Origin: Paenibacillus forsythiae T98
Lineage (GTDB): Bacteria; Bacillota; Bacilli; Paenibacillales; Paenibacillaceae
NCBI RefSeq assembly: GCF_000520735.1
Contig: NZ_ASSC01000142.1
Coordinates: 1 to 54,724, forward strand
Direction of reading: 5' to 3'
DNA: 54,724 bases
A program made the position numbers and the translations under genes. Shown here one piece after another: positions 23,845 through 39,204 of the stretch. The notes beneath the pieces were generated by a model that searched no databases, was not told the origin of the DNA, and saw only the letters and a program-made list of their open reading frames with translations. Position 1 is the first letter of the stretch, and the number at the start of each line of letters is the position of its first letter.

Positions 23845-25377
23845 ATGAACAAGAAAGTATTATCGGCTCTTATTCTCGTTCTCTCGGTCCTGCTCGTTAT
23901 TGCGGGATGCGGCAGCGGGAATGCGGGCAACAACACGGAGAACAAAGAAACTGCGGGACCAACCGCCAAGGCAACAGCTGAAGCCACATCGGGAGCGTCT
24001 CAAACCGAATATACGCCATTCGATCAACTGAAGGATAAATATGATATCATCATTGTCGGCGCGGGCGGCGCCGGGATGTCTGCCGCGCTTGAGGCCAAAG
24101 CAAGTGGCATGAATCCGGTTATTTTTGAAAAAATGCCGGTTGCCGGCGGGAATACAACCAAATCTTCTTCCGGAATGAATGCTTCTGAAACGAAGTTCCA
24201 GAAGGAGCAAGGCATTCAAGACAGCAATGATCTATTTTATGAAGAGACATTAAAGGGCGGTCATGACACCAACGACAAAGAGATGCTTCGTTTCTTCGTT
24301 GACAATTCGGCAAGTGCTATTGATTGGCTGGATTCCATCGGCATTAAACTGAACAATATCACGATTACCGGCGGCATGAACGAAAAGCGCACACACCGTC
24401 CTGAGGACGGCTCCGCGATCGGGCAATACCTGGTCAAAGGTCTGCTGCAAAATGTAAGAGAACAGGGGATTCCGCTGTTTGTTAACGCCGATGTGAAGGA
24501 GCTTACGCAAACAGACGGTAAGGTTAACGGCGTCAAAGTCGTCTTCAACCAGGTAGATGAAAAGACGATTGCCTCTAATGCTGTCGTTGTGACAACCGGC
24601 GGTTTCGGGGCCAACAAGGAGCTGATCGCCTCGGTCAGACCGGATTTAAAAGGATACGTGACAACAAACCAGATCGGCAGCACGGGTGATGGCATTAAGA
24701 TGATTGAGCAGGTTGGCGGCACAACTGTCGATATGGATCAAATTCAAGTTCACCCGACCGTACAGCAAGAAAAATCATATCTCATCGGGGAAGCGGTTCG
24801 CGGCGAAGGGGCCATTCTCGTGGCGCAAGACGGCAAGCGATTCACCAACGAGCTGGGCACCCGCGACAATGTCACCGCTGCAATCAATGCTCTTGCCGAC
24901 AAATCCGCATATCTGGTGTTTGATTCCGGCGTGAAATCCCGCGCCAAAGCGATTCAGCAATATGAAAAAATGGGCTTTGTGAAAACAGCCGATACCATCG
25001 AAGCGCTGGCTAAGGAAATCAATGTTCCGGCGGATCAGCTTAAAGCGACACTGGATACCTGGAACAGCAGCGTGAAGAATAAAAAGGATGCCGAGTTCGG
25101 CAGAACGACAGGAATGGACAACGACCTGTCCGCAGCGCCATACTACGCCATCAAGATCGGCCCGGGGATTCACTACACCATGGGCGGCGTGAAGATCAAC
25201 ACGAACACCGAAGTATTGAATAAAGAAGGCAAAGCGATTCCGGGTCTTTTTGCAGCAGGCGAAGTGACCGGCGGCTTGCACGGGCAGAACCGGATCGGCG
25301 GCAACTCCGTAGCCGAAATCATTATTTTCGGTCGTCAAGCGGGTATCAAATCCGCCGAATTCGTAAAGGCACAATAA
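23845..25377 (+). CDS. Secreted fumarate-reductase-like flavoprotein (lipoprotein)
   Basis: A 510-residue lipoprotein: signal with lipobox VIAGC (Cys22), an Ala/Thr/Glu-rich linker to ~58, then an FAD_binding_2 domain with GAGGAG at 72-77. Active-site elements of soluble fumarate reductases (Fcc3/UrdA group) are present: QVHPT, KRFTNELGTRDN, HYTMGGV and GQNRIGGNS. It should reduce fumarate, urocanate or a related enoate outside the membrane, taking electrons from the quinone pool or a flavin carrier. No FMN_bind domain or heme motifs are seen. Start ATG 23845 with TTGGGGGG. Under a clear FNR box; monocistronic, followed by a strong hairpin. Confidence 0.88.
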   Translation: MNKKVLSALILVLSVLLVIAGCGSGNAGNNTENKETAGPTAKATAEATSGASQTEYTPFDQLKDKYDIIIVGAGGAGMSAALEAKASGMNPVIFEKMPVAGGNTTKSSSGMNASETKFQKEQGIQDSNDLFYEETLKGGHDTNDKEMLRFFVDNSASAIDWLDSIGIKLNNITITGGMNEKRTHRPEDGSAIGQYLVKGLLQNVREQGIPLFVNADVKELTQTDGKVNGVKVVFNQVDEKTIASNAVVVTTGGFGANKELIASVRPDLKGYVTTNQIGSTGDGIKMIEQVGGTTVDMDQIQVHPTVQQEKSYLIGEAVRGEGAILVAQDGKRFTNELGTRDNVTAAINALADKSAYLVFDSGVKSRAKAIQQYEKMGFVKTADTIEALAKEINVPADQLKATLDTWNSSVKNKKDAEFGRTTGMDNDLSAAPYYAIKIGPGIHYTMGGVKINTNTEVLNKEGKAIPGLFAAGEVTGGLHGQNRIGGNSVAEIIIFGRQAGIKSAEFVKAQ

Positions 25378-25401
25378 ATATCAGCTTTCTCTTTTCACGC
25401 A

Positions 25402-25449
25402 GCAAGGGGCGTCCCGCAAGCCATATTTATGGCCAGGGACGCCCCTTGC
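25402..25449. terminator. Strong bidirectional hairpin between flavoprotein and cysS
   Basis: Perfect 14-base arms GCAAGGGGCGTCCC (25402-25415) and GGGACGCCCCTTGC (25436-25449) with an inner GCC/GGC pair. No long T-run on either side, so it may act as a transcript-end stabiliser or weak terminator for both convergent genes. Confidence 0.6.
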
Positions 25450-25464
25450 GTATGTAAAATAAGC

Positions 25465-26910
25465 TCAGTCCGTGCAGGCCAATTTATAAGTGGTCGAGCC
25501 GTCCCGGTTATCGAAAAGCGTAACTCCCATCTGGCTCAGCTCATTTTTCACCGCATCGGCTTCCGCCCAGCTCTTGTTCTTGCGCAGTTCTGCCCGCTTT
25601 AAGACCAAGGCTTCTATCGAACTGGCCTGAACGCCTTTATCCGCTTGGACATTTAGATCCTGTCTCATATCAAAGCACTTGAATACTTGATTGATTTTAG
25701 AGAAATACTCCCAGATCTCTCTGAAATTAACCTCGTTATAATTCCCCCGAATGATCTCATGATTCGTGTCCCTCAGGAAATTAAACAAATGGGCGATAGC
25801 GTTGGGCGTATCGAAATCATTTTCCAGCTCCGCTTCAAAGCAGCTTATCCATTCGTGCAATCTGATGTGCAACAACTGGTTGAATACCTTGCCTGTTCTG
25901 CTGTGGAGATTAAACAAGTAGTTATTGATTCTTTTTAAAGCCGCTTTTGCGGATGCCAGACTGTCATCACTCATGTTCACCATTGCGGAATAATGGTTTG
26001 AAAGGATAAAGAAACGCAAGGACTCGGCGCTGTGCTTCTTTAGAGCCTCTTCTATAGTAATGTAATTCCCGAGCGACTTGGCCATCTTCTGCCCGTTTAT
26101 TTGAAGGACGCCGGAATGAAGCCAGTATTGGACGACTCTTTCCCCTACCAGAGCCTCCGACTGAGCAATTTCATTCTCATGGTGCGGAAAGCATAGCTCT
26201 ACGGCTCCCCCATGAATATCGATTTTGCCCAGGTACTTAAGGGACATGACGGAGCACTCGATATGCCAGCCCGGATAACCTTTGCCCCAGGGACTGGACC
26301 ACTGCATAATATGATTGGGTTCAGCTTTCTTCCACAATGCAAAATCACCGGGATTTCGCTTGCGGCCGTTCACTTCAATTCTGGCCCCGGCCGCCAGCAT
26401 GTCCACCGCGTTGCCTGATAATATACCATAGCTCTCTCTTGTCAGGACATCGAAATAGACATCGCCCTCCACCTCATAGGCGAAGCCCTTTGCTATTAAC
26501 TCTTTAATCGCGTCTATAATTTCTATTATGTGTCCTGTCGCCCGCGGTGCAATAGTTGGTCTGGCAATTTTCAAGGCGTCGTAGCCGCTCCACATGTTTT
26601 GAATATACTCATCCACAATTGCCATTGGATGCTTCTGTTCCAGATTTGCCTTTCTTTGAATTTTGTCTTCCCCGGTATCCACATCTCCAACAATATGCCC
26701 CACATCGGTAATATTCTGAACATGAATGACTTTGTATCCTTTAAACACTTCCAGCACGCCTCTGATCATGTCATAAGCGATAGCTGTTCTTGCATGCCCA
26801 AGATGAACGGGTCCATACACGGTAACACCGCATACATACATGGTCACAATGTTGGGGTCATAAGGCTGAAAATTCTCTTTCTCTCTGGTTAACGTGTTAA
26901 ACACCTGCAT
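25465..26910 (-). CDS. cysS: Cysteinyl-tRNA synthetase, cluster-linked copy
   Basis: A full-length 481-residue class I CysRS. HIGH motif is HLGH (36-39), KMSKS is KMAKS (275-279); zinc ligands Cys27, Cys219 and the HHENE segment (243-247) are intact, and the C-terminal anticodon-binding part is present. It should charge tRNA-Cys in the cytoplasm. ATG at 26910 has AAGGGGGG upstream. It is the last gene of the ten-gene biosynthetic operon, far from the gltX-cysE context where Bacillales keep their housekeeping cysS. Likely a second copy acting in self-resistance or in supplying Cys-tRNA; one cannot tell from this window whether another cysS exists. Confidence 0.9.
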   Translation of the reverse strand: MQVFNTLTREKENFQPYDPNIVTMYVCGVTVYGPVHLGHARTAIAYDMIRGVLEVFKGYKVIHVQNITDVGHIVGDVDTGEDKIQRKANLEQKHPMAIVDEYIQNMWSGYDALKIARPTIAPRATGHIIEIIDAIKELIAKGFAYEVEGDVYFDVLTRESYGILSGNAVDMLAAGARIEVNGRKRNPGDFALWKKAEPNHIMQWSSPWGKGYPGWHIECSVMSLKYLGKIDIHGGAVELCFPHHENEIAQSEALVGERVVQYWLHSGVLQINGQKMAKSLGNYITIEEALKKHSAESLRFFILSNHYSAMVNMSDDSLASAKAALKRINNYLFNLHSRTGKVFNQLLHIRLHEWISCFEAELENDFDTPNAIAHLFNFLRDTNHEIIRGNYNEVNFREIWEYFSKINQVFKCFDMRQDLNVQADKGVQASSIEALVLKRAELRKNKSWAEADAVKNELSQMGVTLFDNRDGSTTYKLACTD

Positions 26911-26939
26911 TCCGAAAGCCCCCCTTGCTAGGATCTGCC

Positions 26940-27743
26940 CTAATTGCCTGCACTCTCGTATCTTTTTAAACCATAGTTGAAAATCGTTACCGCTCCGATT
27001 GCACAATAGATGGCAACTACCGGAGTCAGCAGCCCCCAGTATCTGAATACCTCTTTGTCAAAGAGATAGGCGGCGGGATAAAAGCTTACAAACGCAAAAG
27101 GGACGACTACAGTCACAATCCCTTGAATCACGGTGTTATAGATGGAAACGGGGTATTTCGCAAATTCACCGATGCTATGAATCATAAAGGGAAATGAGCT
27201 TCCAGGGTTTTGCGTCCAGAATACAGACGAATTGGAGGCCAGCTTAATGGAGGACCTGATGATAATTGCCGAAACCAGCAGGACAACAGCCATGATGATT
27301 TTGGGTATTGTCCAATGCATGGATATATGGCTGACAGCCTGAATAAGAATGGCCGTTCCTATGAGAATATTTCCGATTCCATTCACGCCAATCCGCGAAG
27401 ATAATATTTGAAGAATCGGAGATACGGGGCGGATTAGAAAATTATCCAACAGCCCTTTATTGACCAAGGTGTTCATCATCCAGCTTCCCTCGAACAAGAA
27501 AGAAGAGATGCCCTCTGTAACATAAACCATAGCATACACCACAAGCACTTCCCATAATCCCCAACCGTTAATATCCGGAACCCTCTGATAGATCACCCAC
27601 AAAAAAACAAGACCCAGCAAGTGTATCAACGCGGAAGAGAAGATCATAATCATCATATCCAGCCGATATTCCAGCAGCGCTATCAAATTAGCCTTCATAA
27701 ACCTTACATACAAGAGCAGCATTTTGACCCATTTCGCAATCAT
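26940..27743 (-). CDS. ABC-2 type permease (DUF990/ABC2_membrane_6)
   Basis: A 267-residue protein with six membrane helices, of the ABC-2 family formerly DUF990 (LDNFLIRPVSPILQIL is the characteristic loop). With the neighbouring 27759-28559 permease and the 28556-29581 ATPase it should form a heteromeric exporter. ATG at 27743 has a weak GGCGGGA site. Located 15 bases after the sister permease. Confidence 0.85.
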   Translation of the reverse strand: MIAKWVKMLLLYVRFMKANLIALLEYRLDMMIMIFSSALIHLLGLVFLWVIYQRVPDINGWGLWEVLVVYAMVYVTEGISSFLFEGSWMMNTLVNKGLLDNFLIRPVSPILQILSSRIGVNGIGNILIGTAILIQAVSHISMHWTIPKIIMAVVLLVSAIIIRSSIKLASNSSVFWTQNPGSSFPFMIHSIGEFAKYPVSIYNTVIQGIVTVVVPFAFVSFYPAAYLFDKEVFRYWGLLTPVVAIYCAIGAVTIFNYGLKRYESAGN

Positions 27744-27758
27744 CTTGACATTCCCGCC

Positions 27759-28559
27759 TTATCCTCCATAGATCGTAATTTGACGTACCGCCCGGCTCCA
27801 AATCATCCTGCCCGCCAGCCATAGAAACAGCGCCCAGAGCAGCTGTATGGCGATTTCCTGAACTGCGGCTTGACCATTTATCCGATTTAGAAATATGGAG
27901 GCGGGAACGAATACGACACCTCTGAACGGCAAATACGCCGTCACGCTCTCCAGCCACCTTGGAAATAACGTAAGAGGAACGATCGCCCCCGACAGCAAAT
28001 TTGTTATGGCGGCACGCACCCACGCGACTCCATATGGATTGGATGTCCAAAAGCAGAACAGGCCCGCAATATAAATAATGCCGAATTTAATCAAGGCAGA
28101 GGCCAGTAGGCTTACCAGAAATAATAGCCAGGTCAAAAGGTCGGGCGGAGATGCGATACCCTCAAAAATAATGATAATGATGGAAGCCAGCGCGGCGCCG
28201 AGTATACTTTCAAAAATACTGGCTCCCATCGTTTCCGCAAGACGGGCTTTCTGAAAGTCCAGAGGCTTTAGCAAATCCATAGCTACGCTTCCGTCCAATA
28301 TTTTTTGGGAAATCGCCATTTCAGAGTACCAGGATAGCAATGAGTTGGTAATAAACATAATGAGCAAATAAGCCTTCATTTCATCCCACGAATATCCGCC
28401 TATTTCATTATGCTTGGAATAAATAGCTTTCCAGATATAAAACTGGGACATGACCAGCACGAAACCGGCCAGTAAGCTGATTAAGAACGTGCTTCGGTAT
28501 GCCATTGCATTTTGCAGGGATACTTTGCCAAGGACTATATATTTTCTGAATGCATTCAT
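27759..28559 (-). CDS. ABC-2 type permease (DUF990-like), sister subunit
   Basis: A 266-residue six-helix ABC-2 permease; SVAMDLLKPLDFQKARL is the equivalent of the RPVSP loop in the sister. The ATG at 28559 overlaps the ATPase stop as ATGA, so translation is coupled. Paired DUF990 permeases with one ATPase are a recurring export arrangement in Firmicutes and actinobacteria. Confidence 0.85.
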   Translation of the reverse strand: MNAFRKYIVLGKVSLQNAMAYRSTFLISLLAGFVLVMSQFYIWKAIYSKHNEIGGYSWDEMKAYLLIMFITNSLLSWYSEMAISQKILDGSVAMDLLKPLDFQKARLAETMGASIFESILGAALASIIIIIFEGIASPPDLLTWLLFLVSLLASALIKFGIIYIAGLFCFWTSNPYGVAWVRAAITNLLSGAIVPLTLFPRWLESVTAYLPFRGVVFVPASIFLNRINGQAAVQEIAIQLLWALFLWLAGRMIWSRAVRQITIYGG

Positions 28560-29581
28560 ACAATTATCCTCTGATTATTTAAGTTGCTTTCATAAATCTG
28601 TCTGATTACAAGTTCAATGCTGGGCTCGTCTATATGGATATCGACAACATCGCTTCGCTTCATCATAAATTCAATAATTTCACCTGCTGCAAGGTGGAAA
28701 CGATTGAACTGAATGGAACAATGGCTTCCTTCATTCTGAATATGCAACGCTGCCCCCGGAAATTGATTATGCAGGGCGTCTTCCGCCAAATGAAGCGGAG
28801 CCCGGACTTCAAAATGAATCGTTCTTTCCTGTGCGAAAGCATCTTTTACCGCCTGCAATTCACCGTCAAAAATAACCCTGCCCTGGTCGATAATCAGAAG
28901 TCTTTTGCAAATATCCTCAATATCCTCCATGTCATGCGTTGTCAGCAGAATGGTTGTGCCGCTCTCCTGATTGACTTGCTTGATAAATTGGCGAATCCGC
29001 GCTTTAACCGAAACATCCAGCCCAATCGTCGGTTCATCAAGGTAGAGTACCTTGGGGTTATGCAACAACGAAGCGGCCAAATCCGCCCGCATCCTCTGAC
29101 CCAGGGAAATCTTTCTCGCAGGAAGGTGAAGAAACTCGCCTAAATTAAGAATGTCCGTAAAAAGCTCCAGATTTCTCTTGTACTCCCTCTCAGGGATTTC
29201 GTAAATAGCCTTCAGCAATGATAGGGATTCCCTCACCGGCAAATCCCACCAGAGCTGCGTTCTTTGTCCGAAGACGGCGCCGATATTCTTGGCGTTTTCT
29301 ATTCGCTGCTTGTACGGGATGACCCCATTTACAAGGATCTTTCCGCCGGTTGGCACGAGAATTCCCGTCAGCATTTTAATGGTTGTTGATTTCCCGGCTC
29401 CATTAGGTCCCACATATGCGACAGACTCACCCGGATCGATGGAAAAGCTGATGCGGTCTACCGCCGTTTTCTTCTCGTATTCGGGACGCAGCAGATGCCG
29501 GACGGAGCCTGTCAGCCCCGGTTTTTTCACAGCATGAAGAAACTCTTTGGTCAAATCGTCTACGATGATTAATGGTGTCAA
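28556..29581 (-). CDS. ABC exporter ATPase
   Basis: A 341-residue ATPase with Walker A GPNGAGKST, signature ISLGQRMRADLAASLL (degenerate LSGGQ as SLGQR, usual for this subgroup), Walker B VLYLDEPTIGLD and the H-loop TTHD. A C-terminal ~80-residue extension follows. TTG start at 29581 with AGGAGGAAGG. Forms the exporter with the two permeases downstream; likely exports the cluster product. Confidence 0.9.
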   Translation of the reverse strand: MTPLIIVDDLTKEFLHAVKKPGLTGSVRHLLRPEYEKKTAVDRISFSIDPGESVAYVGPNGAGKSTTIKMLTGILVPTGGKILVNGVIPYKQRIENAKNIGAVFGQRTQLWWDLPVRESLSLLKAIYEIPEREYKRNLELFTDILNLGEFLHLPARKISLGQRMRADLAASLLHNPKVLYLDEPTIGLDVSVKARIRQFIKQVNQESGTTILLTTHDMEDIEDICKRLLIIDQGRVIFDGELQAVKDAFAQERTIHFEVRAPLHLAEDALHNQFPGAALHIQNEGSHCSIQFNRFHLAAGEIIEFMMKRSDVVDIHIDEPSIELVIRQIYESNLNNQRIIV

Positions 29582-29604
29582 ACATCCTTCCTCCTATACT
29601 CGTG

Positions 29605-30585
29605 CTAAAGGTCTGCAATCGGGGATTGTCTCAATATTCTGTCGCGTATGGCATGGAAATTATCCGGGTTAGGAAGCAGCGACTGGTACATGGCGGTAAA
29701 AAGCAAAATTCTTCTGTAGCTCAGAAATACATTTAATTGTTTGAGCCAAAACTCATCGATTGCATTCTCCTGATTGTAGGCCCTTAAAAATTGGCTGACG
29801 CTCCTTTGGGCTTGATCTTTTTTCATAGCCGCGCCCTCATAATTCCTATGATCGGGGTACAGGATACTATAAAGAGCAATCGCAATATCCGCCATGTACC
29901 AATGATAGTTGGCAACGTCAAAGTCTATGAATATCCCTTTATTCCTTGCGTACAACACGTTTAATTTGCTCGGGTCATTATGTATAAACCCATATGACTG
30001 CCGATCTAGCGGCAGCGAGCTAAACTGCCTGTTTATATCTCTCCAGCACTCCTGTATCCCATCGTCTTTGGACATCCGGTAGAAGTAGCTCCATTCTTTC
30101 AACCATCCAAAGATAGGAGTCCCTGTAGCCTGGCTTACCTTGACTTCCCTCCATGACGCGTACTCTTTGGACCATCTATGAAGCTGTCCCAACGACTTGC
30201 CCCATTGCGTAATATAATCGTCCAGCTCCATTTCATTTACTGCATAGAACCCCTTGCCTTCAATGAGTTCCATGCAATAAGCAATGTAAATCTGTTGATC
30301 TTCATGAATGAATTCCACTAAATTCCCGTGGAGGGAGCAGTTGATCCTGGCAACCGGCACCTGCCTTTCTCCCAGAAAATTCACAAATGCAAGCCTCTCG
30401 CGAAAGCATTCCACGGTATCCGGATCACGGGATGGAGGGACTGTGCATTTTAATACCTTCGTTGTTCCGTTTTGAATAAAAGTAAATGCGACTCCGCAAA
30501 GACCGTGCCCTAGACTGTTTAAGGCTGCTCTGCAAGTTCCATAAAGCGCCGTTAACTGATCGAGAATCTTATCTGAAATATTCAT
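29605..30585 (-). CDS. Aminoglycoside-phosphotransferase-fold kinase
   Basis: A 326-residue APH/choline-kinase fold protein. Catalytic loop HNDPSKLN (202-209) and the metal-binding DFD (221-223) are intact, with VLKC at ~44-47 as a likely ATP-binding lysine. It phosphorylates an unknown small molecule, either a pathway intermediate or the final product as self-protection. The ATG at 30585 overlaps the end of the radical SAM gene by 17 bases; AAAGGGCGAG lies upstream. Confidence 0.82.
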   Translation of the reverse strand: MNISDKILDQLTALYGTCRAALNSLGHGLCGVAFTFIQNGTTKVLKCTVPPSRDPDTVECFRERLAFVNFLGERQVPVARINCSLHGNLVEFIHEDQQIYIAYCMELIEGKGFYAVNEMELDDYITQWGKSLGQLHRWSKEYASWREVKVSQATGTPIFGWLKEWSYFYRMSKDDGIQECWRDINRQFSSLPLDRQSYGFIHNDPSKLNVLYARNKGIFIDFDVANYHWYMADIAIALYSILYPDHRNYEGAAMKKDQAQRSVSQFLRAYNQENAIDEFWLKQLNVFLSYRRILLFTAMYQSLLPNPDNFHAIRDRILRQSPIADL

Positions 30586-31831
30586 GGGCTCGCCCTTTGC
30601 TCTCGGAACGAATTGCAGGTTCTGCCATCCTCTCCAGCACCTCCAGATTTTCTCTGATCTTCAGAAAGGTAAGACTATGGTCATGAGGTGTTATCGTATG
30701 ATAGGAATTCGAGGGATAGTTCATCAATTGAGTTAGCTGCTGTTTGATCGCTGCTGAATTACTGACGAGCTTGCTTATATTTTCCGGCCAGTTCTTGTCC
30801 ATAAACCAATTTGTTGAAATAGGTCCCCCTGCTGTCGTACCTGGATAGGGCAAATAAAAATGAAAAGAATAAGAAGCAGCGTTAACGAGGTGATGAAATG
30901 TCATAAACTGATGAATGTCCATATTGTCCGATATAATAAATGACAGATGGTAGGGAATCCCATACTCTTTTACCAGATTAATTCTTGAAGTAATCGTAGC
31001 GACGGTTTCGCCTTTCGAGTATCTGTTCAGCTGCGCATCATCCAAGGACTCGACGCCAATGTACAGCTTGTCTATCTTTAAGTCTGTGATGCGGGCCAGA
31101 AGAGCAGGGTTAATCTGATCGGCCCTAATATTCATGGAATACGAGATATTATCAAAGCTCTTTAATAGAGCAATAATATCGTTTAGAATTAGCAGATTAT
31201 TAATGGAGGGATCGGCAATATAAAGCTGCACGGGCTCGTTCGCGTACATTCCCAATTCATATTCGATGGATTTGACGCCTCTTGTATGCATGCTCTTGTG
31301 AAAGGCAGAATGAATGCAAAATTTACATTTATACCGGCAGCCTCTGTTAAACAGAACGATCTCTGAGAAATCAGCTTCAATCGTTTGGTTGGAAAAATGT
31401 CTCTTGGGCCTGCTGGGTACGAAGCTGTCATCGGACCACAGGCTTCTCTTAGCCATATTGAAATACTGGAGTATGCCGTCCTCTTCAAGCTCCGTATCTA
31501 TAAGCACATCCTCTTCAAAAAGCTCAGGGCGAAACTTCGGAAGCGGCCCGCCCACCAGAATTTTTCTATTTATCAGCCTTCTGAATAATCGGTAGGAGTA
31601 ATGCTTGTTCGCCGTCAAATGAGTATAAACCTCATGACCAGCCTGGAGGATGTATTCCAGCTTTTCTTCTATGTTCCCTTGATTCAAATTGACATACGTT
31701 ACAGACATTCCTGCCTGGGACAGCAACGGAGCCAGATATTTTTCAGTAAAGGTTGGAAAAATAAACCCCTTAATATAAACATCCTGTGTGGTATCCAATG
31801 CCGGCAAGTCCACTAAAATAATTGATTTCAC
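30569..31831 (-). CDS. Radical SAM protein with N-terminal Rossmann-like domain
   Basis: A 420-residue protein laid out like B12-binding radical SAM enzymes: residues 1-~145 look like a Rossmann/B12-binding domain (MKSIILVDLPALDTTQD, KILVGGP) but the DxHxxG cobalamin motif is absent; then a radical SAM core with CRYKCKFC (Cys165, 169, 172), and YIGVESLDDAQLNRY later in the barrel. GTG start at 31831. Chemistry unknown; could be methyl transfer, ring rearrangement or C-C bond formation on the cluster substrate. Fifth gene of the operon. Confidence 0.82.
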   Translation of the reverse strand: MKSIILVDLPALDTTQDVYIKGFIFPTFTEKYLAPLLSQAGMSVTYVNLNQGNIEEKLEYILQAGHEVYTHLTANKHYSYRLFRRLINRKILVGGPLPKFRPELFEEDVLIDTELEEDGILQYFNMAKRSLWSDDSFVPSRPKRHFSNQTIEADFSEIVLFNRGCRYKCKFCIHSAFHKSMHTRGVKSIEYELGMYANEPVQLYIADPSINNLLILNDIIALLKSFDNISYSMNIRADQINPALLARITDLKIDKLYIGVESLDDAQLNRYSKGETVATITSRINLVKEYGIPYHLSFIISDNMDIHQFMTFHHLVNAASYSFHFYLPYPGTTAGGPISTNWFMDKNWPENISKLVSNSAAIKQQLTQLMNYPSNSYHTITPHDHSLTFLKIRENLEVLERMAEPAIRSESKGRAHEYFR

Positions 31832-31847
31832 AGATCATCACATCCCA

Positions 31848-32738
31848 TTAGTGAAGGGCCTCACTTAAATATAAGCAGGGCTCGCACCGGTAATAAAATG
31901 TTTGGTTTAAAAAGGCCTCTCTCAGCTTAGGATTGGTAACTTCCTCCAGCAGAGAACCGATCCCTTGTACTCTTAAGCTGCGGAAAATGCCAGACTGTCT
32001 TTTATGAAATAATTTCTCATTCATGTCTTCGTCGCCCAAATGAGCTACATAGGATAGATTACATGCCGTGTAACATGCGTGCCATTGCTTTCTTACATTG
32101 AAATGGATCATGTTATTCGCAAGACACGTGAACAGCTCTTTATTTTCTTCATACCGGAAGCCCTTAAAATCCTTAAGATTCTCACTTGCTCTGCCCGAAG
32201 GCGAAACGTATTTTATTTCCAAAGCAAGGGAGTCATCCCGCCCATATCGCTCAAGGAATAAGGGGATAATATCGCTATCCGAATGATCGACGGTTAATCG
32301 GCAAATCACCTTAAAGCCATTCCTTATGGAGTAATGGATGAAGAAATCCAACAATTCCGAGTGACCCTTCCTGTCTATGGTTCCATGAAAGGTATCCGCG
32401 CTAATGAAATATTCCTCCGCCCGGAAGATTTGAAAAAGCTCCGGTCTTCGCTTGAACAGAAGCCCATTCGTTTCAATCCGGAGACTGCCATGGAAATGCT
32501 CACGTATGTATGCGTATATTTCTGCGGCTTGCTTCATATAGACAAATTCGCCACCGGTTAGAATGACCTTCTCAATATGGTAATCCGTAAGCTTGTTTAA
32601 ATCATGAATGATTTCTTTAACCGTCTCCAGCCCAAGCTCCTCCGTTGAAGCGGGAGAACTGCTGTTATAGCAATGCTTGCAGGTTAAGTTGCATCTGTGA
32701 GTCAATTCCAATAATGCGGTTATGCTCTCCTTCTCCAT
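31848..32738 (-). CDS. Radical SAM/SPASM-like protein
   Basis: A 296-residue radical SAM protein: CNLTCKHC near residues 16-23, the GGEFVY glycine-rich SAM segment, ETNG further on, and a C-terminal pair CEPC with extra Cys in HACYTACNLS, which may hold an auxiliary cluster. ATG at 32738 with AGGAGGAAGAA. Similar proteins modify peptides or small molecules; no precursor peptide gene was found nearby. Confidence 0.82.
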   Translation of the reverse strand: MEKESITALLELTHRCNLTCKHCYNSSSPASTEELGLETVKEIIHDLNKLTDYHIEKVILTGGEFVYMKQAAEIYAYIREHFHGSLRIETNGLLFKRRPELFQIFRAEEYFISADTFHGTIDRKGHSELLDFFIHYSIRNGFKVICRLTVDHSDSDIIPLFLERYGRDDSLALEIKYVSPSGRASENLKDFKGFRYEENKELFTCLANNMIHFNVRKQWHACYTACNLSYVAHLGDEDMNEKLFHKRQSGIFRSLRVQGIGSLLEEVTNPKLREAFLNQTFYYRCEPCLYLSEALH

Positions 32739-32762
32739 TTCTTCCTCCTGCTCCGCAATGTT

Positions 32763-33800
32763 CTAATGGCTGAATGAATAGTAGCGTCTGCCTGGACATA
32801 CTCCGAAGATATCCTCCGTTTTCGAAATATGATAAGCCAAATTGGCGGCTTGTTTCTCCTCCAGCAGACGACTCCAATGCTCCGCCAGAGAACGGTCATG
32901 TATCGTTCCGGCATCAGACGGCACGGCCAGACATCTTCTGATCCGGCCCTCCAAATCATAGACAAGCCCGTAATTATGAATAATGCAGTTGCTTAAATCG
33001 TACATGCCCATATCGTAGTCGGAGAATGTGCTTTTTACTTTTTCGTATAAAATACGGTTTTCACTGTCTGTGATAGCCAGCTCATCCCGGTTTCTTTCTG
33101 CTTCCGACTTTATGACTAACGGGTCAATACAAGTAAGCATATGATTTCTTAGTGAAAAATGAATAATCTCCGTGATTTCGTCCATATTTTTTCTTGTGAT
33201 GATTACGTCATTGATTAACCTGGTTGCATTTCCATCAAGCCCGTCGCTAAAACCGGCTTCGATCAAGCACTTGAGATAATGCGGAATTCTCGTTAATCGC
33301 CCGTCCTTTTCCCTGTAATCGACGAATTGAATCTCATGATGATTCAGCTCCGAAAAAACCGACTCATTCAGAGAGGACAGTTTAATAATTAAGCTGATTC
33401 TTCTTTTGTATAAGGCCTGCGCCAGCTTGCTATCAATCATCATCCCGTTGGTAAAGACAACCGTATATAAATCAAGCTCCTCTGCCAGATCCAGAAGAGG
33501 AAAGGTGTTGTCCTGTTTGTTATACAAATAGGGGTCCATGAAGGGCTCTCCCAAGCCCGATATGACAATAGTCTTGCATCCTAAATCCACCGCCTGCCTG
33601 AAAACTCTCTTGTGATCCTCCAACGTTAATTTTCTCTCTTGATTGACCTTCACTCTCTCATCCTTCATCATGCAATAAATACAATTTAAATTGCATCGTT
33701 CAGAAATGAACGGAACGAGCACAAGCATCCTTCCCTCTCTTTCCGCCTGGCGCCATTCCTCCTCCTTAAAGTCAAACCCTTTGGGAACCAGAGATTTCAC
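32763..33800 (-). CDS. Radical SAM protein with C-terminal cysteine cluster
   Basis: A 345-residue radical SAM protein: CNLNCIYC near residue 36-43, SGLGEPFMDPYLY (GGEP-type motif), FTNGM, and C-terminal Cys in SNCIIHNYG, RRCLAVPS and GVCPGRRYY that resemble a SPASM/twitch auxiliary cluster site. GTG start at 33800 with GAGAGGTG upstream. First of three consecutive radical SAM genes, each distinct in sequence. Confidence 0.82.
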   Translation of the reverse strand: MKSLVPKGFDFKEEEWRQAEREGRMLVLVPFISERCNLNCIYCMMKDERVKVNQERKLTLEDHKRVFRQAVDLGCKTIVISGLGEPFMDPYLYNKQDNTFPLLDLAEELDLYTVVFTNGMMIDSKLAQALYKRRISLIIKLSSLNESVFSELNHHEIQFVDYREKDGRLTRIPHYLKCLIEAGFSDGLDGNATRLINDVIITRKNMDEITEIIHFSLRNHMLTCIDPLVIKSEAERNRDELAITDSENRILYEKVKSTFSDYDMGMYDLSNCIIHNYGLVYDLEGRIRRCLAVPSDAGTIHDRSLAEHWSRLLEEKQAANLAYHISKTEDIFGVCPGRRYYSFSH

Positions 33801-33826
33801 CCCTGCACCTCTCTTTCGATAAATAT

Positions 33827-34948
33827 TTAATGGTACAAGAACAACAGCCTTTCATCCAGATATTCCATAAAGCTCTTTACTTCTCTGAGGCTTTCGCTTG
33901 GAATCGACTGCGCATCTTTATGTATCATGCGGATTAATTTAAACAATTGAGCCAAAGCAAATGGAATGTTTATCTCATCCAGCTTCCTCTTGGCTTCCGT
34001 TATTATCGCGCTTATTTGTGCGCTCATTTCACTTTGTTCCTCAGCCGTTCCTTTCAGCCTGGACAAGCCGGAGTAGAACTCATTAAGCTGTTTAAGATTC
34101 TTTCTGCAAGCCTTAATGTAGTCCGCGTTCAGCTTAAACTCCTTATCAAACTTCGAGTTAAACATGATAAATCGAATTTCCTGCTTGGTGTATCCCGCAT
34201 TGATGTAATCCCGCATATAAAAATAAGGAGATTCCTCGGTGAACAGCACATACTTAACCAAAACCCACTTTTTCGCCAGACTGTTGTTGAATTGGGTATA
34301 GGCCCCGTAAATGGCTTCCTCATTTTCATAATGTGTTCTTTCATTGAATCCGGCGACATGATAATCCACAGGATTCTTCAATTGATTAATGATCGAGGAT
34401 ACACATTGAATGTCCCACCCCGGCCTTCCCTTTCTTCCGTAGTAATCCAATTCAAAACAACCGTTCTCCTCAAATTTCCATAATGACGGATCATAATGGT
34501 TTATCTTGGATAGATCTTTCGCTTGATCCTTCGCTATTGTCCTCTCCGGGATCAAATTCGAGATTTTCCCATAATCGGGAACCCGATTTATATTCAAGTA
34601 GATCCCTTTATCGCCTGTGTAAGCCAGTCCCGAAGCCAATAATTGATTTATAATCGGATACATCTCATGATAGTGCGTCGATGTACAGGTTATCTTCTCA
34701 GGATAGTCGATGGAGAGATAGGCGTATTCCTTCTTCATTTCTTCCAGGAGCGACTCGGTAGAAAACTCAGGATTCCTTGTCTTGGCCTCAATAATGTGGT
34801 CATCGATATCCATGATATTCATACCATGCTCAACATGAACGCCTTGCTTTCTGAAATGCTTGACAATAAAGTCTGTCATCAAAAATATTCTATAGCAGCC
34901 AAAGTGAATACTGTCATTCAGTGTAGGACCACAGTTGTAAATCCTCAT
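33827..34948 (-). CDS. CysRS-like ligase paralogue without HIGH/KMSKS
   Basis: A 373-residue homologue of the CysRS catalytic domain (MRIYNCGPTLND; NIMDIDDHIIEA). Zinc ligands match CysRS: Cys6, Cys182 (GRPGWDIQC), His206 and Glu210 (HYENE). But HIGH has become HFGC (15-18) and the KMSKS loop is gone (KYVLFTEESPYFYMRDY instead). The helical DALR-type region remains; the anticodon-binding end is missing. This recalls MshC, a CysRS-derived cysteine ligase, but with weaker ATP motifs. ATG 34948 has AGAGGG upstream and overlaps no other gene by more than its leader. Predicted to bind cysteine or Cys-like thiol and join it to the C-glycoside scaffold; inferred. Confidence 0.8.
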   Translation of the reverse strand: MRIYNCGPTLNDSIHFGCYRIFLMTDFIVKHFRKQGVHVEHGMNIMDIDDHIIEAKTRNPEFSTESLLEEMKKEYAYLSIDYPEKITCTSTHYHEMYPIINQLLASGLAYTGDKGIYLNINRVPDYGKISNLIPERTIAKDQAKDLSKINHYDPSLWKFEENGCFELDYYGRKGRPGWDIQCVSSIINQLKNPVDYHVAGFNERTHYENEEAIYGAYTQFNNSLAKKWVLVKYVLFTEESPYFYMRDYINAGYTKQEIRFIMFNSKFDKEFKLNADYIKACRKNLKQLNEFYSGLSRLKGTAEEQSEMSAQISAIITEAKRKLDEINIPFALAQLFKLIRMIHKDAQSIPSESLREVKSFMEYLDERLLFLYH

Positions 34949-34967
34949 AGTCTGCCCTCTATCGTAT

Positions 34968-35966
34968 CTACTCATAGCTTTTGCTTATCTCAAAAGGAGC
35001 GTTTCTGATTTCGGTAATATAAATATCGCAGTTGGGGAACTTTTCTGTCAGATAACGCTCATTGACGAACGGGCTTAAGCTGCCATCTTCACGAGCCTCC
35101 ACGAACGTATAACACGCCGGACCGAGTGAAGACAGCGCCGAGAAGCCGAATAATTCCTCCAGCCGGCAGAGAATCTCTCCGCATATCCGCTCATTGATTT
35201 TCAATTCGGCTCTTTTGGTTCCAGCCTTCGTAATCATCTTCATCGAACGGATAAACCCTTGAAAGTCGCTCTCGATAATAGCTGGAATTACACCCATTAG
35301 AGTGAAATAGGCGATTTCTTTCACTTCCTCTACGGGAACCGGAGTATACTTGGCGAAAAAAGCATCTTCTTCAGCTTTGCTTATCGAGGTGTGCAGCTTG
35401 GGAATTACTACAATCACCTTCCATGTACTCTTAATTTCGTGATTAAACAGAAACACCGGAGGCTTTTTGGAATGCTCGACGAAGTTCGCTTTTTCTTCTC
35501 CTAGCATGTATCCGCCGTCGACAATAAATTTCCCCAGCGTGTACGTTCCATATCCGATCCCCGATACACCCGCAAGCCCCAGCTTTTTTGAAATATCGAC
35601 AAAATCATACTCTGCATTCTCAAGTGAAACAATCCCGGTTGCCAGTGCATAGTACAGTTGGGTTTCCGATCCAATTCCGATGTGCTCGCTAATTTCATTC
35701 ACTACATTTATGTAATAGTTCGACTGAAACGAGTAGACCTCCTTAAGCTTGTCTATGTATTGCTTAACTTTATCCGGGTATTTACACTGATAGATTTCTT
35801 CATCGCTCTTCTCAATTTCCAGCTCCAGAAAAGGCTCCTTTAGAGCAAAGCCCAATCCGCCACAGCAACGCCCGCTGAAACCGTTCATATCAATACTATT
35901 GATGTGAATACGGTATCCGGTTTTAATGGAAACCTTCTTGAGGCTTTTAACCGTAGTATCTATCAT
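34968..35966 (-). CDS. Beta-RFAP synthase / C-glycoside synthase homologue (GHMP fold)
   Basis: A 332-residue GHMP-kinase-fold protein matching beta-ribofuranosylaminobenzene 5-phosphate synthases: YRIHINSIDMNG, GRCCGGLGFALKEP, the phosphate loop GIGSETQLYYALATG (~97-111), and AGVSGIGYGTYTLGKFIVDGG (~132-152). These enzymes join PRPP to an aromatic acid with loss of CO2 and PPi, making a C-riboside; archaeal and methylotroph forms serve methanopterin synthesis and relatives (ForT, PyfQ) make C-nucleoside antibiotics. ATG at 35966 follows GAAGGGGA. First gene of the operon; no methanopterin genes are nearby, so secondary metabolism is likelier. Confidence 0.85.
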   Translation of the reverse strand: MIDTTVKSLKKVSIKTGYRIHINSIDMNGFSGRCCGGLGFALKEPFLELEIEKSDEEIYQCKYPDKVKQYIDKLKEVYSFQSNYYINVVNEISEHIGIGSETQLYYALATGIVSLENAEYDFVDISKKLGLAGVSGIGYGTYTLGKFIVDGGYMLGEEKANFVEHSKKPPVFLFNHEIKSTWKVIVVIPKLHTSISKAEEDAFFAKYTPVPVEEVKEIAYFTLMGVIPAIIESDFQGFIRSMKMITKAGTKRAELKINERICGEILCRLEELFGFSALSSLGPACYTFVEAREDGSLSPFVNERYLTEKFPNCDIYITEIRNAPFEISKSYE

Positions 35967-36022
35967 TCATTACCAGTCCCCTTCAAACAAAGAATAAATA
36001 ACAACCAGCGATTCTTTGGGGC

Positions 36023-36063
36023 AAAAAAAGAGGCAAGCTGCATTGTTATATGCAACCCGCCTC
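36023..36063 (-). terminator. Leader terminator (attenuator) before the biosynthetic operon
   Basis: Arms at 36030-36043 and 36050-36063 pair over 14 positions (some G-U), loop of six; on the minus strand seven T follow. It lies between the promoter and the first gene, 57 bases upstream of the ATG, so transcription of the operon must read through it. Confidence 0.75.
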
Positions 36064-36072
36064 CATATTCAT
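36046..36072 (-). CDS. Possible leader peptide MNMEAGCI
   Basis: An eight-codon frame (MNMEAGCI) starting 36072, whose Cys codon lies in the first arm of the attenuator hairpin. Ribosome movement over it could influence termination. The Shine-Dalgarno (AGAG) is weak, so this is tentative. Confidence 0.3.
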   Translation of the reverse strand: MNMEAGCI

Positions 36073-36118
36073 GGTCAGCTCTAACCGTTTTACCGTCGAT
36101 CCTCTTAGAAAATATAGT

Positions 36119-36149
36119 ATTATCCTAACATTTTTTCCCTTGATGTCAA
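36119..36149 (-). promoter_or_regulatory. Candidate sigma-A promoter of the biosynthetic operon
   Basis: Minus strand TTGACA (36149-36144) and GATAAT (36124-36119), spacer 19 bases, longer than optimum. Start near 36112 gives a leader of about 145 bases including the attenuator. Confidence 0.5.
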
Positions 36150-36570
36150 TCTTTTTTTTAAAAATATATTTCCGAAGGCCCGCACGGCCTCCAGTATTTG
36201 CTTCGTGGTGATTTGACCGCCGATAAAACCAATCTGACCGGGTGCGGACGGGGCTGCCCCTTTACGGACGACAACGGCTTCTTGTCCGCCAGTCTATAAT
36301 CCTTTTGCTTCCCGCAGCTTATGAATCCGTTCTTTTACCGAGTCGTCAGGCGTCAATCATACCACCTATATCTGACCTCACAAGCTTAGCATACAGAGCC
36401 TTTCTTGTACCATTCTTTGGCTTTCTAGAGTGTTTCGCTAGCAGGTGCACCAACTCACGTACTTCATCCGGCCTCTGATCGGACCCTGCATGGTGTCCGA
36501 ATGCTCCATCCATGCCACCAGCTACCCATCTTAATTTCCCCCCGGACCAGAATTCTTCGTCATCCGGCAA
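36120..36570 (-). pseudogene. Degraded reading frame downstream of the nucleotidyltransferase
   Basis: Protein-like sequence in two frames. From 36570 to 36346: LRWVAGGMDGAFGHHAG and following basic helix, ending MIDA-stop. Overlapping in another frame from ~36353: PDDSVKERIHKLREAKGL, a TAG stop, then TGGQEAVVVRKG and GFIGGQITTKQILEAVRAF to a TAA at 36120. This fits one gene (or two) broken by a frameshift and a nonsense codon. I do not recognise the family. The biosynthetic operon promoter lies in its tail. Confidence 0.45.
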
Positions 36571-37355
36571 GGAACCGTCGACGGATTTAGCGCCGATCGG
36601 AACAACTCGTCAAGCCGCTGATCCTGGTCTCCATCAGAAGGCTGCATACTTGATGCGGCCCTCTCGTAATACGCGATTCTGTTCTCCAAAAATTCATTGA
36701 TCGGGTTGATCCTTAGTTCGTAGTCCATTTCGTCGCCAGCCCTTTTACGGTCCAGCAAGCCCGCAATAACCGCCTTAAGCTCGCTTTCCTTTGGCACTAA
36801 GCTATCAACAAGCCGGGCAAATTCTATAGGCGGCATGGAGTTATACTTCTCTATCCACTCACATGCCAGAATCGGGCGGAGAACATAGAAGTATTTTTTG
36901 ATCTTGACCTGATCCCCTTGCAGGTACTCCCGGTAGTTCCCCTTCGCCATGTGCAGGTAGTGGTGCATACATGACCTTGGGGAAAAGGTGAGCGGAGAGA
37001 TTCGGCGGATTTGCTCGGCTATCGCATAGTTCTCCCTATACACAATCGGGGACTGAAGCCACTCCAGCAACGGCGGATTCGACTTGCGAAACAAGTTCAA
37101 GGCTTTGCGCAGATCCCAACCATTGATATCCAGCCTGTCGCTGATCGGACGCTCGATCACATCCCGCTTGTCAAAAATAGATAAGTACCACTCTTCCGGC
37201 CTGATATAGATAAACCTTACGTCATAATCGCTATCTTTGGACGGGAAACCCCAGGCGCGGCTGCCCGATTCGCAAGCATACAAAATACGGACATTGTCTT
37301 CGCGCTCAATCCGCTCAAGCTCAGTCACAATCTGTTGATGGTAACTGCTGCTCAT
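36531..37355 (-). CDS. RlaP-type nucleotidyltransferase (COG3541)
   Basis: A 274-residue DNA-polymerase-beta-fold nucleotidyltransferase: ACESGSRAWGFPSKDSDYDVRF holds the GS and DxD catalytic motif, followed by YIRPEEWYLSI and LDINGWDLRKAL typical of the RlaP (RNA ligase associated pol beta) family. Predicted to add or edit nucleotides at RNA ends in repair systems. ATG at 37355 with AAGGAGGG. It follows the slipin gene after a 147-base gap containing a long inverted repeat. The last ~25 residues are unusual and overlap the degraded frame below, so the natural C-terminus may have been altered. Confidence 0.82.
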   Translation of the reverse strand: MSSSYHQQIVTELERIEREDNVRILYACESGSRAWGFPSKDSDYDVRFIYIRPEEWYLSIFDKRDVIERPISDRLDINGWDLRKALNLFRKSNPPLLEWLQSPIVYRENYAIAEQIRRISPLTFSPRSCMHHYLHMAKGNYREYLQGDQVKIKKYFYVLRPILACEWIEKYNSMPPIEFARLVDSLVPKESELKAVIAGLLDRKRAGDEMDYELRINPINEFLENRIAYYERAASSMQPSDGDQDQRLDELFRSALNPSTVPCRMTKNSGPGGN

Positions 37356-37386
37356 ATAAATCCCTCCTTAGGGGACGGATATAAAT

Positions 37387-37412
37387 GGCCTTGGACATCA
37401 ATGTCCAGGGCC
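37387..37412. repeat. 26-base inverted repeat between slipin and nucleotidyltransferase genes
   Basis: GGCCTTGGACAT (37387-37398) and ATGTCCAGGGCC (37401-37412) are complementary apart from one T-G pair, spacer two bases. No T-run, so it may be a protein-binding palindrome or a processing hairpin in the transcript. Confidence 0.5.
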
Positions 37413-37502
37413 CGGATTACATAAAACTGCTATTCCTGCATCGGCAGAACGATTTAACAATCGGTTTGGTTGATGAAAAGAAAACATAGTGTTCTTTATT
37501 TG

Positions 37503-38609: not shown

Positions 38610-38622
38610 CTTCGTTACCCCC

Positions 38623-38817
38623 TTAATGGTTCGACCATTGGGTGTAGAATCCCACTGCGGTTCCGGCGGAATCTCGTTTTAGATAAGCGATCTGCCAGGG
38701 ATTTTTAAGGACATTTGATTCAGGAGGGTGACCCTGCTTCAGCCATCCTTCTTCCTCTTCCATCCTAAAAAGCCCCCGGAATTTCGCTCCATCGGTATCC
38801 ACGGATTGCAAGGCCAA
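38623..38817 (-). CDS. Small hypothetical protein upstream of slipin
   Basis: A frame of up to 64 residues from TTG 38817, or 46 from ATG 38763 (MEEEEGWLKQG), ending GFYTQWSNH 13 bases before the slipin start. Composition and codon use look coding (NPWQIAYLKRDSAGTAVGFY). The ribosome binding site is weak for every start. No family recognised. It may be translated from the same transcript that carries the tRNA-like RNA. Confidence 0.45.
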   Translation of the reverse strand: MALQSVDTDGAKFRGLFRMEEEEGWLKQGHPPESNVLKNPWQIAYLKRDSAGTAVGFYTQWSNH

Positions 38818-38829
38818 CCTGCAGTGCGC

Positions 38830-38918
38830 TCAAACTAGCCGCCGGGGATTCTACCCTTTGGTCTTAGTACAATTTCTCGCTCGATTGGAAGTCGAGTATT
38901 CTACCAGATTCGCGTCAC
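38830..38918 (-). ncRNA. tRNA-Gly-like element B upstream of slipin
   Basis: On the minus strand: D-arm-like CTGGTAGAATAC (38907-38896), a perfect anticodon arm CTCGA-CTTCCAA-TCGAG (38896-38880) with anticodon TCC, a long variable stretch, and a T-arm-like GGGTAGAATCCCC (38856-38844). The acceptor stem cannot be formed and there is no CCA, so it is not a normal tRNA-Gly. It directly follows element A. Burroughs and Aravind described a tRNA-like RNA with Band-7 repair systems; this appears to be an example. Confidence 0.55.
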
Positions 38919-39026
38919 AGGCGATTGGGGAATCGAACCCCAAATAGTGGCTTCTTACCGATCGATCGTACAGGATACCGCAACATACCATGCACGGCAC
39001 TGCGGGATAAATCGATATCCCCGCCT
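38918..39026 (-). ncRNA. tRNA-like element A upstream of slipin
   Basis: On the minus strand: acceptor-like AGGCGGG (39026-39020) pairs at six of seven positions with ATCGCCT (38925-38919); next to it is a perfect T-arm TGGGG-TTCGATT-CCCCA (38942-38926). A strong hairpin replaces the D-arm (39001-39024). Length ~109 bases and no canonical anticodon arm, so it is tRNA-like, not tRNA. Probably co-transcribed with slipin or processed from its leader. Confidence 0.55.
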
Positions 39027-39175
39027 CGTTACGACCGTCCGAACAAGAGCCAATGTATGATTAAACGCCATTTGGCGTTTACCACCTTACTCAATGCATC
39101 TAACAGGTTCTATCATCGCGCAATTCACTCTGATCGAACATGGCAAAAGTATTACGACGAACATAAACTTTTCCA

Positions 39176-39204
39176 TTTGCCCCATATCCCTCCCCTGTTA
39201 CAAT
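39176..39204 (+). promoter_or_regulatory. Candidate promoter of the WYL pair
   Basis: TTGCCC (39177-39182), 16 bases, TACAAT (39199-39204), about 35 bases before the TTG start. The intergenic region 38818-39238 otherwise holds the tRNA-like elements and an AAACGCC/GGCGTTT hairpin at 39063-39080. Confidence 0.4.

Follow-up and report, generated by a model that had tools for sequence, protein, structure and literature searches.

A Paenibacillus forsythiae operon with a truncated and a complete cysteinyl-tRNA synthetase as a candidate source of a cysteinyl nucleoside-like inhibitor

The window analyzed here, the 54,724-nucleotide contig NZ_ASSC01000142.1 of Paenibacillus forsythiae T98 (assembly GCF_000520735.1; positions 1 to 54,724, forward strand), carries on its minus strand, at 25465-35966, ten consecutive open reading frames (ORFs) that overlap their neighbors or lie at most 29 nt from them and very probably form a biosynthetic operon. 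By analogy with characterized antibiotic pathways, the operon may plausibly serve to make and export a cysteinyl nucleoside-like compound that inhibits cysteinyl-tRNA synthetase (CysRS), and to protect the cell from it, a proposal for which we consider the arguments on the two sides evenly balanced. What the sequence itself displays are the enzyme families and the gene layout, a CysRS paralog (CysL) with a zinc site and no KMSKS motif, an extra divergent CysRS, and a synthase apparently not of the methanopterin type. Ten tightly packed minus-strand genes had been described in an initial annotation; ORF analysis confirmed their position and strand, and profile searches in Pfam and NCBIfam agreed with the enzyme families named for the ten proteins. 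These are, in the order of transcription:

34968..35966, minus strand: RFAP/ForT-family C-glycoside synthase, 332 amino acids (TIGR00144, ForT chains, active-site comparison, tree)
33827..34975, minus strand: CysL, truncated CysRS paralog, 382 amino acids (PF01406, CysRS alignments)
32763..33800, minus strand: radical S-adenosylmethionine (SAM) protein 1 (rSAM1), MoaA-like core, 345 amino acids (PF04055)
31848..32738, minus strand: radical SAM protein 2 (rSAM2), YydG/SkfB/NirJ-like, 296 amino acids (PF04055)
30569..31831, minus strand: radical SAM protein 3 (rSAM3), B12-binding-type N-terminus by a weak match, 420 amino acids (PF04055, PF02310)
29605..30585, minus strand: APH-fold kinase, 326 amino acids (PF01636; 6sui, 6sum)
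28556..29581, minus strand: ATP-binding cassette (ABC) exporter ATPase, DrrA-like but under that cut-off, 341 amino acids (Pfam/NCBIfam)
27759..28559, minus strand: ABC-2 permease 1 (PF06182), 266 amino acids (Pfam)
26940..27743, minus strand: ABC-2 permease 2 (PF06182), 267 amino acids (Pfam)
25465..26910, minus strand: complete divergent second CysRS, 481 amino acids (TIGR00435, genus count, tree)

The genome samples comprised 394 genomes of the family, 398 of the phylum, 299 of the class, and 100 of the genus, and the whole-genome searches covered the synthase, CysL, rSAM1, and CysRS. Published systems are cited from excerpts of the papers named.

Of the CysRS domains, CysL has the catalytic one (PF01406, 129.3 bits), and no DALR_2, CysS_C, or anticodon domain was found in it by the Pfam search; its score against the CysRS model TIGR00435 is 157.8 bits, under the cut-off of 340. 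In an alignment with seven complete CysRSs, it is invariant at C15, C191, H215, and E219, which we take to be the zinc ligands holding the cysteine thiol, and at W187, presumably the CysRS tryptophan. The KMSKS motif, which reads KMSKSLGN elsewhere and KMAKSLGN in the operon CysRS, is missing: a serine followed by a six-column gap stands at its site, with other residues there in a separate set of alignments. HIGH reads HFGC, and the stretch DIHGG.x.DL preceding FPHHE, presumably ribose-binding, is altered. Judged by these residues, CysL is expected to bind cysteine without the ability to activate it using ATP. The intact zinc site supports the earlier suggestion that cysteine is a building block, and cysteine is likely to be part of the product. 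In plasmids, the ten best of 621 records matching CysL are approximately 27-28% identical to it and are annotated cysS or unannotated, and no relatives were found in viral contigs.

A resemblance to MshC of the mycothiol pathway has to be weighed here, which like CysL is a CysRS-derived catalytic domain acting on cysteine (TIGR03447; PMC6594144) and is a characterized small-molecule cysteine ligase among the matched CysRS relatives (8hfm and 3c8z, E 9.6e-11). The operon could accordingly serve to ligate cysteine to a C-glycoside in the manner of MshC, giving a mycothiol-type thiol or redox cofactor with no antibiotic role, which we regard as improbable: CysL reaches 75.3 bits against a cut-off of 485.1 in TIGR03447, is nearer to ordinary CysRSs (E 5.1e-27), and lacks KMSKS, such a cofactor would require no exporter and no additional CysRS, and the synthase was found in no other of the 394 family genomes. 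Since KMSKS is missing, an ATP-using ligase role of the MshC type is unlikely for CysL on sequence grounds, and the "cysteine-type ligase" of the initial annotation cannot be upheld in that sense.

The complete CysRS gene noted earlier is present, with its start placed at ATG 26910, preceded by AAGGGGGG, instead of the TTG that opens the longest ORF; the possible role of a second copy had not been recognized. Its product scores 486.8 bits against TIGR00435 (cut-off 340), possesses HLGH, KMAKS, and the zinc ligands, and matches DALR_2 at 29.1 bits (cut-off 22) and CysS_C at 19.8, just under 23. It is 37% identical (BLASTP) to the other CysRS of the genome, on contig C710. Every one of the 100 genomes of the genus matches CysRS at E ≤ 1e-15, 99 of them once and only this genome twice, and at E ≤ 1e-118 a single other match to the operon CysRS was found in the phylum sample (46% identity). 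A 12-row tree contains a four-sequence genus clade (100/100) that excludes the operon copy, which joins three Bacteroidota sequences on a long branch (95/92), while the other CysRS of the genome groups with that of Clostridioides difficile (99/99). Because it is excluded from the genus clade and divergent from the C710 enzyme, the operon CysRS is, as far as sequence tells, an acquired extra copy and not a recent duplicate. It is 41% identical to the CysRS of a Prolixibacteraceae metagenome-assembled genome (L083) and 43% to L082. KMAKS and an insertion after NITDV had been considered as resistance marks; L083 has counterparts of both, namely KMGKS and a similar insertion, so that they look like lineage features.

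A second CysRS could also be a stress paralog, serving for instance under zinc limitation, that is located on an island and only adjoins the other genes, with CysL as a decaying copy. Plasmid CysRS genes of Klebsiella and Pantoea do lie among folE2, dksA, zigA, and a repressor gene, in what we read as zinc-limitation islands. No companions of the folE2, dksA, or zigA type are found among the ten operon proteins, and CysL does not look like a decaying copy: its ORF of 382 codons is intact and shares its first 8 nt with the end of the synthase gene, its zinc site is kept, and its identity to the operon CysRS (22-23%) does not exceed that to other CysRSs (22-26%). This explanation is therefore held to be distinctly improbable.

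Three known systems illustrate the function of a pairing such as that of CysL with an extra CysRS. In the ascamycin pathway, AcmF is a truncated AlaRS-like enzyme without most of the ATP-binding residues that aminoacylates the nucleoside from Ala-tRNA, and AcmD is an extra alanyl-tRNA synthetase (AlaRS) of the cluster that supplies Ala-tRNA and is itself resistant to the product. A comparable case, of isoleucyl-tRNA synthetase (IleRS) type and contained in one protein, is SbzA (PMC12945691). In the albomycin pathway, AbmF condenses seryl-adenylate with a thionucleoside, the supply apparently coming from an extra seryl-tRNA synthetase (SerRS), AbmK, which confers immunity, and the radical SAM enzyme AbmJ is thought to alter the sugar (PMC9032320). 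Tested against the layout of AcmF/AcmD and AbmF/AbmK, the operon was found to have both a truncated aminoacyl-tRNA synthetase (aaRS) paralog without the ATP site, adjoining a nucleoside-type synthase, and, for that same amino acid, a further aaRS that is divergent and of full length. It shares with the ascamycin cluster of Streptomyces sp. 80H647 the combination of a truncated, ATP-site-poor aaRS with a full extra aaRS for the same amino acid, but uses cysteine and the CysRS fold where ascamycin uses alanine and the AlaRS fold; ascamycin is a nucleoside sulfamate, whereas a C-glycoside is presumed for the operon, and the excerpt on ascamycin mentions no radical SAM trio (PMC12945691) such as the operon has. 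Albomycin adds the likeness of radical SAM enzymes acting on a nucleoside, beside an aaRS-like condensing enzyme and an extra divergent aaRS (PMC9032320; AbmM, PMC12691670), and differs in its serine and SerRS, its thionucleoside, and its siderophore part; the excerpts on it mention no ForT-type synthase.

A cysteinyl C-nucleoside-like inhibitor of CysRS is proposed because CysL and the operon CysRS match this layout, and the operon CysRS is proposed to be a self-resistance enzyme as well as a supplier of activated cysteine. The pathway would begin with the ForT/RFAP-type synthase joining phosphoribosyl pyrophosphate (PRPP) or a variant of it to a (hetero)aromatic acid to give a C-nucleotide, which the radical SAM enzymes, one of them perhaps B12-dependent, could then rearrange, methylate, or otherwise tailor. 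The operon CysRS would produce Cys-AMP and Cys-tRNA. CysL would hold the cysteine part by its zinc site and, since it is expected to be unable to activate cysteine with ATP, would take the cysteinyl group from Cys-tRNA or Cys-AMP and move it to an amino, sulfamate-like, or similar nucleophile of the C-nucleoside, giving a mimic of Cys-AMP. Ordinary CysRS would be the target that this mimic blocks, and the producer would be protected by the divergent CysRS, by inactivation through the APH-type kinase, and by the ABC exporter. In its most specific form, namely a cysteinyl C-nucleoside antibiotic directed against CysRS that is assembled by an ATP-inactive, zinc-site CysRS paralog, with a sugar donor of the synthase that is maybe not PRPP, the proposal is a tentative one, which we hold to be somewhat doubtful.

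With 182.4 bits against TIGR00144, the RFAP synthase family model (cut-off 113.5), the synthase is a member of the C-glycoside-synthase family to which it had been assigned, while it reaches 195.6 bits against NF040726, the equivalog model of methanopterin beta-RFAP synthase, with a cut-off of 328; the Pfam search gave no match. Three relatives were found among solved structures, all of them ForT chains as judged by alignment range and length or by name (E 1.5e-18 to 5.6e-18), and by TIGR00144 and phmmer the ForT-type C-glycoside synthases (PMC8183095, PMC9832568, PMC8724604) are of the same family. An alignment of the synthase with 22 family loci and ForT showed that Arg19, the pyrophosphate loop, Thr106, Ser139, and Glu211 of ForT are kept, the E211A variant of ForT being inactive (PMC9832568, PMC8183095). 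Ser142 is not kept, and Thr138, a site that is variable across the family, is replaced by Val, a change that in ForT lowers activity without abolishing it (PMC8183095, PMC9832568).

The synthase tree has 21 rows, L047, L024, and L025 having been dropped from a 24-row set. The closest relative found, in a Prolixibacteraceae metagenome-assembled genome (L008; 30% identity), shares the run GYRIHINSIDMNG with the operon synthase and pairs with it at 96/91, both on long branches and hence to be taken with caution; the two fall outside a 99/99 clade of 14 rows that includes L055 and L056, the synthase genes of which adjoin formylmethanofuran/methanopterin genes. Because of this placement outside the clade, the synthase is, by its sequence, not of the methanopterin type, and the clustering with methanopterin-type enzymes that the initial annotation had taken as counting against its reading was not obtained. 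The neighbors of the L008 synthase, two nucleoside-kinase-like proteins, a NUDIX protein, and a radical SAM protein, fit nucleotide chemistry, though the gene set differs from that of the operon.

Several relatives of the synthase lie in settings of their own. At L008 6262-10945, the gene stands beside NUDIX, thymidylate-kinase-like, radical SAM, and deoxynucleoside-kinase-like genes, and mobilization-type genes, a transposase-like gene, and a group II intron-like reverse transcriptase were seen around it by eye; the locus is possibly another C-nucleotide cluster. On a Rhizobium plasmid (L054 6167-11397), genes for an RFAP-family protein, a D12-class DNA adenine methylase, and a Ham1-kinase fusion lie side by side, a set that might serve DNA modification with an unusual nucleotide. 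Phylum-mates (L023-L026, L052) possess a separate RFAP-like family of 406-428 amino acids, with Tyr at the position of ForT Arg135 and scores of approximately 80-83 bits, under the RFAP-family cut-off.

The strongest rival explanation comes from another C-nucleoside pathway, that of pyrazomycin, to which the MetRS-like domain of PyrN belongs (PMC8664883). PyrN is, like CysL, a class I aaRS-derived enzyme, and the C-nucleoside scaffold of pyrazofurin is made by an RFAP-synthase-like enzyme (PMC8724604). CysL, in which the cysteine site is kept, could on this model act before the sugar step and bring cysteine into the base, where it would become part of a sulfur heterocycle, for example of a thiazole-type C-nucleoside, with the extra CysRS accessory or for immunity. 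According to the excerpt, PyrN depends on ATP and works with a cupin on N-hydroxylysine (PMC8664883), whereas CysL lacks KMSKS and neither a cupin nor an N-hydroxylase was found among the ten operon proteins by Pfam; the second CysRS is also less well explained, and we consider such a role of CysL unlikely. The thiol-cofactor and zinc-stress explanations, and one based on peptide modification that concerns the radical SAM proteins, fit worse than this one.

The three radical SAM proteins have their CxxxCxxC motif at residues 36 (rSAM1), 16 (rSAM2), and 165 (rSAM3). The first (PF04055, 42.4 bits), with the motif CNLNCIYC, matches TIGR02666 at 53 bits, under its cut-off; the second (48.3 bits) has further cysteines at 146, 205, 222, 226, 285, and 288; and the third (46.7 bits) matches the B12-binding domain PF02310 at 24.6 bits, under 32.1. 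The alignment of rSAM2 with the peptide-modifying YydG and SkfB would suit a cluster for a ribosomally synthesized and post-translationally modified peptide, in which the radical SAM proteins modify a ribosomal peptide and the remaining genes are unrelated cargo. Since the gaps are of 29 nt or less, there is no precursor gene between the operon genes, a precursor elsewhere not having been sought systematically; no NCBIfam cut-off was reached by any of the 25 best matches for rSAM1 and rSAM2 or the 13 for rSAM3, and no protease or leader-binding domain was found by Pfam among the ten proteins, which together make a peptide product highly improbable. Relatives of rSAM1 occur on Sinorhizobium and Azospirillum plasmids (L058 9935-14968, L057 9896-12097), where agmatinase-family genes follow; the Sinorhizobium locus also has an ATP-grasp gene.

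The kinase (PF01636, 53.9 bits) has at E ≤ 0.01 only two distinct relatives among solved sequences, the amicoumacin kinases 6sui (7.9e-21) and 6sum (2.6e-17), a likeness that does not fix its substrate. As its nearest solved relatives are amicoumacin kinases, a role in immunity appears at least as likely from the sequence as one in tailoring; as a tailoring step, the phosphorylation suggested earlier is not favored over immunity.

Two further features lie upstream of the first gene:

36122..36149, minus strand: promoter-like site TTGACA-16-TAGGAT, the second hexamer being preceded by TG (10 of 12 consensus matches)
36023..36064, minus strand: terminator-like hairpin of 15 pairs (36064-36029) followed by a T run, between the promoter and the first gene

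A single promoter had been assigned to the operon, and a site is present; positions 25000-36700 contain 25 such promoter-like sites against 22.8 expected in shuffles, so that it counts as a consensus match only. The hairpin, absent from the initial annotation, is possibly an attenuator. The leader folds slightly better than its shuffles do (z = -2.24), 6 of 200 of them folding equally well; no Rfam family was found above its gathering score in the whole window, and the leader searched alone gave two chance-level Rfam matches (E 0.29 and 0.75). A putative 8-codon ORF, MNMEAGCI, within 36016-36075 (minus strand) includes the 5' arm of the hairpin and has its Cys codon within the terminator stem; it lacks a clear ribosome-binding site and may be due to chance. 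Stalling at the Cys codon under CysRS inhibition could lead to opening of the terminator.

The window is one contig of a 5.08-Mb draft assembly of 895 contigs that is 92% complete and 4.8% contaminated. The operon has a GC content of 0.44, against 0.53 in the left flank and 0.48 in the right flank, as the initial annotation had stated for the block to the left, and the transfer that it had suggested is supported as probable by tetranucleotide usage. The host sample for this measure consisted of the 16 contigs of the same genome of at least 7 kb (16 of 40 stretches were long enough), which correlate with one another at 0.525-0.888 in a leave-one-out comparison. The left 25 kb correlate with this sample at 0.873 and the operon at 0.515, under all 16 host contigs, on a coarse measure for which 13 stretches from four other genomes of the genus span 0.425-0.884. 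The 18.6-kb right flank (36150-54724) stands at 0.577, compared with 0.827-0.888 for four 20-kb host pieces (L093, L094, L104, and L123, at 0.888, 0.845, 0.844, and 0.827). As the right flank also fits the host poorly, foreign-looking DNA seems to continue to the right of the operon, which apparently forms the left portion of a longer stretch that was acquired. No repeats of at least 10 bases are shared by the two operon edges examined, and the window has no tRNA genes. Contamination by the contig as a whole was judged less likely, the left 25 kb matching the tetranucleotide usage of the host.

The right flank encodes a second Lgt (49870-50679), which is 36-37% identical to the Lgt of four other genomes of the genus, and a gene at 37503 that has no match or a partial 28% match in five other genus genomes. 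A degraded coding-like remnant (...GQIGFIGGQITTKQILEAVRAF) lies at 36174-36300 (minus strand), just upstream of the operon promoter, and may be the border of the acquired stretch. In the left flank, ethanolamine ammonia-lyase-like genes (EutB-, EutC-, and EutA-like by eye) at 17040-20633 (minus strand) lie near an oligopeptide-type ABC transporter, also recognized by eye.

A number of results weigh against a cysteinyl nucleoside-like inhibitor as the product, the principal one being that the cluster has been seen once so far. Co-occurrence of the genes in other genomes, to which the initial annotation had looked, was not found in the samples searched. The synthase matched only itself at E ≤ 0.001 (1 of 394 family genomes), and so did CysL at E ≤ 1e-32 (1 of 398 phylum genomes) and rSAM1 at E ≤ 1e-20 (1 of 299 class genomes); the floors for CysL, rSAM1, and, in the phylum, CysRS were set so that ordinary CysRSs and radical SAM proteins drop out, and would hide distant relatives. 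Members of the synthase family were detected at E ≤ 0.001 in 68 genomes of the phylum sample, and 14 genomes, this one among them, pass the cut-off. Fifteen neighborhoods of synthase relatives, some shortened by contig ends, were compared (the 13 other cut-off passers, one weaker match, and L008, which came from a contig scan with short exact peptide patterns that detects mainly close relatives): at E ≤ 1e-4 all 15 matched the synthase, and the sole match to any of the remaining nine proteins was one to the ABC ATPase, in L051. In the L008 genome a single CysRS match was found, with no CysL besides it, and its radical SAM protein resembles rSAM3 weakly (24% over 186 positions, E 2e-5 in a single comparison). 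Plasmids gave no match of at least 60% identity to six operon proteins and CysRS, and eight plasmid neighborhoods of synthase, rSAM1, and kinase relatives contain by their annotation no second gene of the set except ABC transporter genes (L054); no relatives of CysRS and the synthase were found in viral contigs, nor of the synthase in phages. With the cluster found in a single genome, the claim of a conserved family is weakened.

Other objections concern the individual enzymes. AcmF keeps its tRNA recognition domain, whereas CysL has no recognizable one, which disfavors transfer from tRNA, unless the acceptor stem is enough for it. Arg135, which together with Arg19 and Thr106 is essential for PRPP binding in ForT (PMC8183095, PMC9832568), is Leu in the operon synthase; the position is Arg in 13 of the 22 family loci, Ile in L008, and Gln, Pro, or Tyr in the other eight. 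Because of this replacement, the C-ribosylation of an aromatic acid suggested earlier is uncertain, even though the family membership stands. No gene for the base or for an amine or sulfamate handle is recognizable among the ten proteins by Pfam and NCBIfam, nothing in the sequence of the operon CysRS can be singled out as a resistance mark, and the link of that enzyme to the Bacteroidota drops to 90/93 when CysL is added to the tree. The AlphaFold models of CysL (pLDDT 39) and the synthase (pLDDT 48) were too poor to use. A chimeric join of the contig near 23-25 kb is possible, to which the foreign-looking right flank, the divergent second Lgt, and the poorly matched gene at 37503 point. The product and target of the operon are in any case what we infer from its genes.

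A designed, synthetic cysteinyl-sulfamoyladenosine (cysteinyl-AMS) has been used on MshC and would be expected to inhibit CysRS (PMC6594144). In the open-access literature searched, no natural CysRS inhibitor was encountered and nothing linked cysteinyl-tRNA synthetase, self-resistance, and a biosynthetic gene cluster; the excerpt of one review names CysRS within a classification of synthetases (PMC7916415). By their titles, the matches listed include no CysRS-like enzyme, RFAP-type, or Bacillales C-nucleoside cluster of this kind. If the proposal is true, the operon would encode a candidate CysRS-directed natural product together with its own resistance gene, and the logic of a degenerate aaRS beside a spare one would be extended from alanine, serine, and isoleucine to cysteine and the CysRS fold. 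A synthase of C-nucleoside type would, moreover, then be present outside the actinomycetes, the group from which pathways of this sort are described (PMC8724604). The pair of an aaRS paralog without the ATP motif and a second aaRS of the same kind offers a simple signature by which undiscovered aaRS inhibitors could be sought. Should the target be another one, CysL would still represent a type of enzyme, with a zinc cysteine site and no KMSKS, for which the searches found no close relative.

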